Source of the DNA: Muribaculaceae bacterium
Lineage (GTDB): Bacteria > Bacteroidota > Bacteroidia > Bacteroidales > Muribaculaceae
Reading direction: 5' to 3'
DNA length: 39,505 nt
Assembly: GCA_029071345.1 (NCBI GenBank)
Contig: JAIEAO010000066.1
Span: forward strand, 1-39,505
A program made the position numbers and the translations under genes. The notes under the pieces were generated by a model. The model had not been told where the DNA came from, ran no database searches, and worked only from the letters and a program-made list of their open reading frames with translations. The number at the start of each line of letters is the position of its first letter. Positions within the stretch are counted from its first letter, which is position 1. Below, one piece after another: positions 6,758 to 30,685 of the stretch.

Positions 6758-6763
6758 TTTGTA

Positions 6764-6794
6764 AGTATGAAGTATAAAGTATAAAGTATGAAGT
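6764..6794 (+). repeat. Heptameric tandem repeat array
   Basis: AGTATGA AGTATAA AGTATAA AGTATGA AGT, strict 7-bp period. Confidence 0.85.
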
Positions 6795-6892
6795 CGCGGA
6801 GCGACGAGATTGTGGTTAACCCCACATGATGGAGCGAAGCGACTGAGTGTGGGGAAGGGGAAAATCTCAAAAAAATAGAGTGCCGGAGGCAC
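6793..6892 (+). repeat. Interspersed inverted-repeat element bounded by GGA-loop hairpins (copy 1)
   Basis: GTCGC-GGA-GCGAC, then GAGATT...CCCCACA / TGTGGGG...AATCTC, then GTGCC-GGA-GGCAC. Homologous to 21435-21521. Confidence 0.7.
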
Positions 6893-6904
6893 GATATTAT
6901 GAAT

Positions 6905-6932
6905 CTGCGGACGCGATATATCGCGTCCCTAC
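6905..6932 (-). repeat. GTAG-headed REP-like palindrome (copy 1)
   Basis: Minus strand reads GTAGGGACGCGATATATCGCGTCCGCAG; 8-bp perfect stem GGACGCGA/TCGCGTCC. Confidence 0.8.
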
Positions 6933-6966
6933 TGAAAACTGAAAACCAATAACTGAAAACTAAAAT
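6932..6966 (+). repeat. Heptameric tandem repeat array in the gcvH leader
   Basis: CTGAAAA CTGAAAA CCAATAA CTGAAAA CTAAAAT; directly abuts the REP and ends 11 bp before the gcvH ATG. Confidence 0.85.
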
Positions 6967-11517: not shown

Positions 11518-11640
11518 TTGTAAAAATAGTTAGGTATACCCGAATAGAATTGCATATGTTGTAAAAATATATTAGTATACTTGAATAAAATTACAGAATT
11601 TGTAAAAATGTTTAGGTATACCCAAAAGAAATTACGGAAA
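11518..11640 (+). repeat. Three direct tandem copies of a 41-bp unit
   Basis: Copies at 11518-11558, 11559-11599 and 11600-11640, each starting TTGTAAAAAT and containing GTATAC and a GAATARAATT-like block; exact 41-bp spacing. Confidence 0.85.
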
Positions 11641-15916: not shown

Positions 15917-15921
15917 GGCAG

Positions 15922-15949
15922 TTTTCGGTTTTAAGTTTTCAGTTTTCAG
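15922..15949 (-). repeat. Heptameric array in the MBL gene leader
   Basis: Minus strand CTGAAAA CTGAAAA CTTAAAA CCGAAAA, ending 6 bp before the ATG. Confidence 0.85.
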
Positions 15950-15986: not shown

Positions 15987-16020
15987 CTAATTCCTAACTC
16001 CTAATTCCTAACTCCTAACA
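15987..16020. repeat. Heptameric array overlapping the rsmG stop codon
   Basis: CTAATTC CTAACTC CTAATTC CTAACTC CTAACA. Confidence 0.85.
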
Positions 16021-21434: not shown

Positions 21435-21521
21435 GCCGGAGGCATGATATAATTGTTAACCCCACACTCCCTCGCAATGCTCGGTCGTATGGGGTTAACA
21501 ATTATCTCGCCACTCCGTGGC
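21435..21521. repeat. Interspersed inverted-repeat element bounded by GGA-loop hairpins (copy 2)
   Basis: GCC-GGA-GGC; perfect 16-bp arms ATAATTGTTAACCCCA (21449-21464) / TGGGGTTAACAATTAT (21490-21505); minus-strand GCCAC-GGA-GTGGC. Confidence 0.8.
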
Positions 21522-21990: not shown

Positions 21991-22024
21991 TTATTGGTGT
22001 TAGTTGTCAGTTGTCAGATTTCAG
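21991..22024 (-). repeat. Heptameric array in the DUF3127 gene leader
   Basis: Minus strand: CTGAAAT CTGACAA CTGACAA CTAACAC CAATAAA. Confidence 0.8.
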
Positions 22025-22050
22025 TAGGGACGCGATAAATCGCGTCCGCC
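22024..22050 (+). repeat. GTAG-headed REP-like palindrome (copy 2)
   Basis: GTAGGGACGCGATAAATCGCGTCCGCC. Confidence 0.8.
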
Positions 22051-27364: not shown

Positions 27365-27384
27365 TAGCGGAGCACACTCCGCTA
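27365..27384. repeat. Hairpin immediately after the receptor stop codon
   Basis: TAGCGGAG-CACA-CTCCGCTA, perfect 8-bp stem; adjoins a heptamer array. Confidence 0.6.
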
Positions 27385-27440
27385 AGAATGAAGTATAAAG
27401 AATGAAGTATAAAGTATAAAGTATATAGTATATAGTATAA
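27385..27440 (+). repeat. Eight-unit heptameric array
   Basis: AGAATGA AGTATAA AGAATGA AGTATAA AGTATAA AGTATAT AGTATAT AGTATAA. Confidence 0.92.
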
Positions 27441-27441
27441 A

Positions 27442-27467
27442 GTAGGGACGCGATACATCGCGTCCGC
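27442..27467 (+). repeat. GTAG-headed REP-like palindrome (copy 3)
   Basis: GTAGGGACGCGATACATCGCGTCCGC. Confidence 0.8.
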
Positions 27468-27474
27468 AGAGATA

Positions 27475-27500
27475 GTAGGGTCGCGGCATACCGCGACCGC
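27475..27500 (+). repeat. GTAG-headed REP-like palindrome (copy 4, stem variant)
   Basis: GTAGGGTCGCGGCATACCGCGACCGC; same flanks, compensatory stem changes (A-T to T-A, A-T to G-C). Confidence 0.75.
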
Positions 27501-27545: not shown

Positions 27546-27593
27546 ATTACCATTAACTATTAACCATTAACTTTTAACTTTAACCCTTAACCA
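27546..27593. repeat. Heptameric array
   Basis: TTAACTA TTAACCA TTAACTT TTAACTT TAACCCT TAACCA. Confidence 0.75.
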
Positions 27594-27681: not shown

Positions 27682-28674
27682 TTAGAACATGTGGAGAGCT
27701 ACGTCTGTGAGCCAGATCCATAGAGGGCAGAAGCCTATGAAGAGAATCACACTCAGGGTCAGTGAAGACGTACCGGTAGCAACATAAGTGTCGTTTTCGT
27801 CGGCAATGATGATTCCGGAGAATGCCGGCGGAAGTGCAGCAGCGACAACAAGCATCTTAAGATTTGACGGATCCATGTGGAAGAGCATACCCAAGATAAG
27901 CACTACGAGCGGCATTACAATCATCTTCATGATCGAACCGAGAACCACCTGCCAGTTGAAAGTGAACTTGATGGCGGAAAGTGTGATACCGGCTGAGAAC
28001 ACTGCCATTGAGGCGTTGGCTTTGGCGATAAGGTCGAACGACGGACTCAGCCATGCCGGCCATTTAAGACCGCAGAGCACGAGGATTACGGCCAAGATAG
28101 GAGCCCAGGCCACAGGCTGTGCCAATGCGTGAAGCACCGGTTTCAGAGGATTCTGCTTTTTGGCGTTGGGGTTCTGTTTCGCAAGCGAGGCGTTCATAAG
28201 TGATAGACCCACCGGGATACCGACTGCATTCACAACGATTCCGACGATTGCGACTACCAATGCCACTGCGGGCAGACCTACTGTAGAGTCAAATATAGGC
28301 TCAAGCACGGCAAATCCGAGGAAGCCGATTGTAGGCGAACCACTGATCAATGCCGAGACGGCAGCGTCGGCGCCCGTGTTCTTCTTGAAGCAGTATTTAA
28401 ACACGAAGTAAACAAGCATAAAGCACCCCATGATGCCTATAAGCGAGACGAGTGTGAGCTTAAGGTCTTTGGCAAGATCTTCGCGACTTGCCGTAACGAT
28501 TGAAACGAAGAGGGCGGCAGGCAACGCGTAATCGAGCACTACTTTATTGAATTTCTTGGCATCATCACCCGAGAATATTCCTTTCTTTCCGGATATGAAC
28601 CCGGCAAGCATTACCACTACAATCGGAACTATAGCGTATAATATAATGTGCATCATATTGCTCATAACTTTCAA
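27682..28674 (-). CDS. AEC (auxin efflux carrier) family transporter, candidate oxalate/formate carrier
   Basis: Multi-TM AEC motifs (IPIVVVMLAGFISGKKGIF, ALPAALFVSIV, LPPAFSGIIIADENDTYVATGTSSLTLSVILF); downstream of frc-oxc on the same strand. Confidence 0.8.
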   Translation of the reverse strand: MKVMSNMMHIILYAIVPIVVVMLAGFISGKKGIFSGDDAKKFNKVVLDYALPAALFVSIVTASREDLAKDLKLTLVSLIGIMGCFMLVYFVFKYCFKKNTGADAAVSALISGSPTIGFLGFAVLEPIFDSTVGLPAVALVVAIVGIVVNAVGIPVGLSLMNASLAKQNPNAKKQNPLKPVLHALAQPVAWAPILAVILVLCGLKWPAWLSPSFDLIAKANASMAVFSAGITLSAIKFTFNWQVVLGSIMKMIVMPLVVLILGMLFHMDPSNLKMLVVAAALPPAFSGIIIADENDTYVATGTSSLTLSVILFIGFCPLWIWLTDVALHMF

Positions 28675-28682
28675 TTTTTAAG

Positions 28683-28777
28683 TTATTAGTTAATGGTTAA
28701 TAATTAATGGTCGGGTAGTTAATAGTTAACGGGGAATAATCACCATTAACTATTAACTTATAACCATTAACCTTTTA
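28683..28777. repeat. Two heptameric arrays in the oxc-AEC intergenic region
   Basis: TTATTAG TTAATGG TTAATAA TTAATGG ... TTAATAG TTAACGG and CCATTAA CTATTAA CTTATAA CCATTAA CCTTTTA. Confidence 0.75.
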
Positions 28778-30627: not shown

Positions 30628-30685
30628 GTGAGAAGTAAGAGGTGAGAAGAAATGTATTACTTCATACTTGATACTTCATACTTTC
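30628..30685. repeat. Heptameric arrays in the frc-oxc intergenic region
   Basis: GTGAGAA GTAAGAG GTGAGAA and TACTTCA TACTTGA TACTTCA TACTTTC. Confidence 0.75.

Follow-up and report, generated by a model that had tools for sequence, protein, structure and literature searches.

The four GTAG-headed hairpins present in a 39,505-nucleotide stretch of a Muribaculaceae MAG (the window, meaning the whole of that stretch) are very probably REPs, non-autonomous single-strand-DNA mobile elements tied physically and evolutionarily to a HUH/Y1 transposase of the RAYT (TnpA-REP) type. We infer the mobilisation itself from TnpA-REPs studied elsewhere. A preliminary description made from the letters alone had located and spelled the hairpins, and re-reading the sequence confirms all of them (Table 1). 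Each one folds as four unpaired nucleotides (GTAG) plus both the 8-bp perfect stem and the 4-nt loop that had been claimed, with folding z values of -3.6 to -4.9, and the four loops are as it gave them. The double compensatory change ascribed to copy 4 is there, and copies 3 and 4 do stand in direct tandem, 33 bp from start to start. Scanning the window with the pattern GTAGGG-N{10,24}-CCGC gave these four matches and nothing more of the type, whereas dinucleotide shuffles averaged 0.35 and none of 100 reached four. An unpaired GTAG directly 5' of a palindrome of 6-13 bp with a short loop is the form of the GTAG REPs, and it is the form found here, in two subfamilies, ACGCGA and TCGCGG.

Table 1. 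GTAG-headed hairpins of the window and the 7-bp repeat arrays that adjoin them.
Feature	Position	Strand	Description
REP copy 1	6907..6932	-	GTAG + GGACGCGA-TATA-TCGCGTCC + GC; between gcvT and gcvH
REP copy 2	22024..22049	+	loop TAAA; upstream of a minus-strand ORF, downstream of an amidohydrolase gene
REP copy 3	27442..27467	+	loop TACA; flanked by a CarboxypepD_reg-type gene (+) and, convergent with it, a Mem_trans transporter gene (-)
REP copy 4	27475..27500	+	TCGCGG subfamily, GGTCGCGG-CATA-CCGCGACC; direct tandem with copy 3
7-bp tandem array	27384..27444	+	ends in phase at the GTAG of copy 3
GTTGTCA-type heptad array	21996..22023	+	abuts the GTAG of copy 2
GTTTTCA heptad array	6933..6960	-	abuts the GTAG of copy 1

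Other repeats were seen in the window as well: a 41-bp unit (TTGTAAAAATA...) present three times in direct orientation (11518-11640, intergenic) and a 40-bp inverted repeat with a 1-nt gap and 75% complementarity (21437-21517), which contains GTTAACCCCACA and is related to 6797-6826.

The same hairpins are abundant in the rest of the genome (G000; 2.56 Mb in 189 contigs, 86% complete). A loose pattern gave 188 matches, against 91 for the reversed control, and the covariance-model search that the preliminary description had proposed, with a model built from 19 distinct copies of this genome, returned at least 153 REP copies, many of them letter-identical, a lower bound with 150 of the 1229 first-look candidates scored. 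Over the 19 distinct copies 100% of the stem cells are paired, and sliding the partner by 1-3 columns leaves at most 49% paired; 5 of the 8 stem pairs have changes on both sides (25 cells, against a shuffled mean of 5.3 and at most 3 in the slid controls). The compensatory variation is therefore real and spread over several subfamilies (ACGCGA-TATA, TCGCGG-CATG, ACGCAC-CATG, ACGCTC-CATG and ACATGG-CATG), and subfamilies formed by complementary stem variants are a trait of GTAG REPs. So are high copy number, dispersion and a mostly extragenic location: of the 102 copies in 437 kb sampled from this genome, 90 lie in intergenic DNA, which makes up 12.4% of that sequence. Among the 32 pairs found less than 250 bp apart in these 437 kb, 17 are inverted with the GTAG outside (+-), 2 have the opposite arrangement (-+) and 13 are direct like copies 3 and 4. 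Double-foot REPs (GTAG...CTAC) are also present, and at L230:10306-10333 and L035:5964-5991 their palindrome extends into the flanks (tgtctcact/agtgagaca and tttatta/taataaa). Searching the literature for REPs of Muribaculaceae or Bacteroidales brought up no relevant report.

The cognate enzyme escaped the Pfam Y1_Tnp model, which had no match in 7 of 27 REP-rich genomes; the NCBIfam RAYT model, run on the REP-rich genomes without such a match, led to a divergent RAYT. The representative in the genome of the window is a protein of 158 aa on contig C132 (C132:21682-22158), scoring 13.9 bits with Pfam Y1_Tnp (cutoff 23) and 56 with the NCBIfam model (cutoff 80). It was the sole match of a profile search of this genome, so that the window indeed lacks a RAYT, as had been stated. 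The preliminary description had advised looking for a RAYT with GTAGGG palindromes in its own flanks, and the C132 gene has them, 51 bp upstream (+) and about 25 bp downstream (-), its ORF being free of internal REPs. These bracketing REPs are of the GCACCATGGTGC subfamily (GCACC type), not of the ACGCGA or TCGCGG types of the window. The motifs of these RAYTs are NH[IVLF]H, WQ and Y[IV]xxN, the RAYT profile matches PDB 4er8 at 1.5e-6 (a TnpA-REP in complex with a REP hairpin), and an AlphaFold model of the C132 protein (pLDDT 82) retrieved ISDra2 TnpA, IS608 TnpA and 4er8 with Foldseek at E about 1e-6. Motifs, profile and predicted structure thus agree on the HUH motif, catalytic tyrosine and Y1 fold of a REPtron. 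A search of plasmid records gave only 3 homologues, all distant.

The association is repeated in the relatives. A RAYT flanked by the REP type of its own genome, as in a REPtron, is found in the genome of the window and at 29 of the 30 Muribaculaceae RAYT loci fetched, which hold 79 GTAG REPs in 102 kb, and controls are near zero: the same scan around three other Y1 families found REPs at 1/29, 0/29 and 2/21 loci. The RAYT of G008 lies within a REP cluster, and those of G233, G175, G210 and others are bracketed by that genome's own REP type. The cluster around the G008 gene (L217, G008:C30) is made of repeated units of ~100-200 bp in which forward GCGCCATGGCGC alternates with reverse GCGACATGTCGC, a BIME-like mosaic. 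The preliminary description had seen the work of a RAYT in the GTAG beside a palindrome and had allowed that the idea would fall if no related genome had such a gene and strains did not differ in presence of the hairpins; RAYTs in this genome and in its relatives contradict the first of these, and the GTAG REPs at the same-family loci support the idea. Where a RAYT ORF could be recognised all loci have REPs (28/28), and in 21 of the 28 a REP is inside the ORF; of 34 internal REPs, 25 fall in the stretch from the HuH to the WQ motif, and the reading frame is preserved.

Enzyme and hairpin also vary together. The distance between RAYT proteins correlates with that between REP stems (Mantel r 0.63, p 2e-4, n=25), and with a profile (A3) built from nine divergent RAYTs we have found 84 strong carriers among 297 family genomes, among the matches listed. 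Counting carriers in this same way, at least five REP matches were present in 46 of the 84 and in 37 of the 213 others (OR 5.8, p 5e-10), p-values being indicative because the genomes are not phylogenetically independent. There were 24 genomes with at least 10 REPs yet no RAYT detected, and 16 RAYT carriers without an R1 match, figures to be read knowing that R1 misses divergent REPs and that some assemblies are incomplete. Beyond the family the A3 profile has matches in 135 of 344 Bacteroidales genomes; GTAG hairpins stand at 19 of 29 loci fetched from them, against 0/29 after shuffling, and several of these loci show the double-foot form GTAGAGACG...CGTCTCTAC.

The genome also has four genes that do match Pfam Y1_Tnp (C46, C127, C150 and C170 types). 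Three of them (C46, C150 and C170) were tested against relatives as the possible mobiliser and all were rejected. The most deceptive is that on contig C46, an IS200-like Y1 transposase of 147 aa that has an inverted pair of these REPs at its sides, one 237 bp before the gene and the other about 330 bp after it, and that in its own genome alone resembles a perfect REPtron. Its homologues in relatives, however, have a GTAGGG REP at 0/29 loci, where a mobiliser of subclass 1.2 should show them, its presence does not track REP abundance across genomes, and its motif YIKNQHQHH is that of Quentin subclass 1.2, a class described without REPs (PMC6006769). The comparison makes the flanking REPs a coincidence, and that this enzyme moved the hairpins is scarcely credible. 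The C150-type gene had a GTAGGG REP at 0/29 loci and tracked REP abundance weakly (OR about 2); the C170-type gene had REPs at 2/21 loci, and those were other hairpins. The C127 gene, on a contig that has no REPs, is homologous to the C46 gene (41% identity).

Some further observations concern these genes. A search with the C46 protein retrieved relatives in a Porphyromonadaceae MAG and a Duncaniella MAG, in keeping with a Muribaculaceae host. The subclass-1.2-like proteins (L033:5971-6414, G000:C46, YIKNQHQHH; L034:8602-9054, G000:C127, YIENQQQHH) have relatives in 145 of the 297 family genomes, usually at low copy and without GTAGGG REPs, and the C150 protein (L036:3207-4169, G000:C150) and its homologues form a divergent Y1 family of 320 aa in 119/297 genomes, with GTAGGG REPs not nearby. 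A second GTAG hairpin family, GTAGCGGAGGTTTCCCAACCTCCG, occurs in the genome of the window at L042:7057, L048:2539 and L050:4888 and 4990. It may be the REP of the C170-type RAYT, because similar hairpins (GTAGC..GGTTT) flank C170-type RAYTs in relatives (L118, L121).

The hairpins are intergenic and fold strongly, and one copy is terminator-like on one strand, with a T-rich tail, all of which would suit ordinary transcription terminators or mRNA 3' hairpins and not mobile DNA. Against this, a terminator scan gave no excess (7 versus 8.6 in shuffles), and terminators would not be expected to carry a conserved GTAG on one side only, to lie in frame within RAYT ORFs or to co-vary with the RAYT, so that we consider this origin highly improbable, even if REPs may have a secondary role as RNA hairpins. 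Their dispersed, intergenic palindromes could equally recall operators or chromosome-organising sites spread by selection for protein binding, but the stem sequence varies freely between genomes whereas pairing, GTAG and RAYT linkage are retained, and we give such an origin next to no credence.

More evenly balanced is the question of which RAYT spread the subfamilies of the window. Since REP type tracks the RAYT and the REPs on either side of the RAYT of this genome are of the GCACC type, the chances are about even that ACGCGA and TCGCGG owe their spread to another RAYT, now lost or lying in the missing ~14% of the assembly; in that case the copies in the window may today be relics. Stem type follows RAYT lineage, RAYT ORFs from other genomes (L241, L242, L258) contain ACGCGATATATCGCGT/ACGCGATACATCGCGT types and the RAYT genes of G057, G099 and G076 contain ACGCGATA-type REPs, while the one RAYT found in the genome of the window has only GCACCATGGTGC REPs at its sides. 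On the other hand, the TnpA-REP of E. coli is reported to serve several REP subtypes, so that one enzyme may serve all (PMC6006769), and GTAGGG, stem length and loop length are common to the subfamilies.

For REPs moved by a RAYT, a plausible route can be drawn from the TnpA-REPs already studied, which cleave at CT, or CT/CA, beside the hairpin, need the GTAG, and for which an 8-bp perfect stem is a known type of substrate (PMC8266576). By analogy with them (PMC8266576), the RAYT would bind GTAG and hairpin in the single-stranded state, its tyrosine would cut at a nearby CT or CA dinucleotide, and the cut REP strand would be joined elsewhere by the same enzyme, a process by which REPs would increase in number and form pairs, either tandem or inverted. 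As RAYT lineages diverge the stem would alter in matched steps, which would give the compensatory subfamilies. Of 102 copies in this genome, 28 have the dinucleotide CA immediately before the GTAG, which is compatible with a CT/CA cleavage site and is not proof of one. We have also looked at the orthologues of the Mem_trans gene beside copies 3 and 4. Within the locus examined a GTAG-hairpin REP is absent in 18 of 19 genus relatives, and the remaining one has a REP of other type beyond the same end of the gene. These relatives are one genome per species, the nearest ~70-90% identical in coding sequence and with intergenic DNA too diverged for exact junctions; at that resolution the pattern would fit a REP gain at this site in this lineage.

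A peculiar feature accompanies the REPs of this genome. Tandem repeats of 7 bp abut the 5' (GTAG) side in 24 of 102 REPs and the 3' side in 1/102, with a background of 3.5% of intergenic 28-mers. GT is found at -7, -14 and -21 in 27-30 of the 102 copies, and in at most 10 at any other offset in the range, so the heptads are in register with the GTAG. Their units have the form (GTNNNNN)n, such as GTTTTCA, GTGAGAA, GTAATAA and GTATAAA. There are ~118 arrays in 437 kb of this genome, most of them away from REPs, and one array at 125 REPs in the loci fetched from other genomes, in which heptad arrays are rare generally. The window itself has arrays of these classes that stand alone, apart from any GTAGGG REP (6763-6794, 15921-15949, 15987-16019, 27549-27592, 28666-28708 and 30658-30683), and a further repeat, GTAGCGCCGRCACTCCGTGRCGGC, likewise has arrays ending at its GTAG (L233:17461-17490, L042:976-1006). 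A literature search on heptads with REPs gave nothing relevant. The arrays at REPs are a new-looking feature, for which slippage anchored at the GTAG, insertion at array ends or a by-product of the RAYT are candidate origins. One unlikely scheme is that GTAG elements seed heptanucleotide satellites: a RAYT nick beside the GTAG, followed by slippage or repeated strand transfer, would lay GTNNNNN units on the GTAG side only, in register with GT, and arrays would end up dispersed through intergenic DNA. If true, satellite seeding would be a new product of HUH/REP activity.

Among the described systems, the closest in host and motifs are the subclass 2.4 REPtrons (Quentin et al. 2018, PMC6006769; Bertels group 4), likewise from Bacteroidetes and with NH[IFV]H and WQ motifs. 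In that subclass GTAG REPs are located beside and, uniquely, in frame within the tnpA-REP gene, between the HuH and Y motifs (PMC6006769), and in-frame REPs in the same position are found here. Double-foot REPs are common to subclass 2.4 (PMC6006769), to the genome of the window and to homologues in other Bacteroidales families. The differences lie in the Y motif, mostly Y[IV]xxN[IV] here versus YIxNNP, in the hairpin, short here (8 bp + 4 nt) versus 'long', and in the stem base, with 2-3 G-C pairs here versus 3 (PMC6006769). In our 28 RAYT ORFs WQ is always present, 3 have NHLH and the rest NH[IFV]H, and the Y motif ends in NP in 2/28 and in N[IV] in most. Judged by these motifs and hairpins, the Muribaculaceae system appears 2.4-like, not proven 2.4. 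The REP itself is near-identical to that of the Group 3 / subclass 2.5 REPtron of Stenotrophomonas maltophilia (PMC8266576), GTAG plus an 8-bp perfect palindrome and a short loop, of 3 nt there versus 4 nt here; its RAYT, however, has a YI[VI]ANP motif and belongs to Xanthomonad/Pseudomonad lineages, where intragenic REPs are not reported as typical (PMC8266576).

The GTAG REP families 1-24 (Di Nocera et al. 2013, PMC3733652) share the GTAG tag, the 6-13-bp stem and the complementary sub-families, and their pairs are mostly HH, with the GTAG outside, as here. Direct-tandem (HT) pairs are rare in that survey, versus 13 of 32 close pairs here, and its hosts were Proteobacteria, Cyanobacteria, Chloroflexi and PVC, not Bacteroidetes (PMC3733652). 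With the IS200/IS605 TnpA (IS608, ISDra2) the RAYT has in common the HUH/Y1 fold and the hairpin-plus-tetranucleotide logic, but it is without IS ends or TnpB, low-copy, and associated with REPs instead of transposing as a unit. The GTAGGG REPs and their RAYT are a fresh instance of an already known selfish DNA, and no novel kind.

An abundant REP family of the Muribaculaceae, a dominant gut family, is now tied to a specific RAYT, to which the standard Pfam model gives a weak score or no match at all. The transposase often bears its own substrate within its reading frame, and hairpin and enzyme diverge together. Such matched RAYT/REP pairs can be swapped as a direct test of how TnpA-REP recognises a perfect-stem REP.
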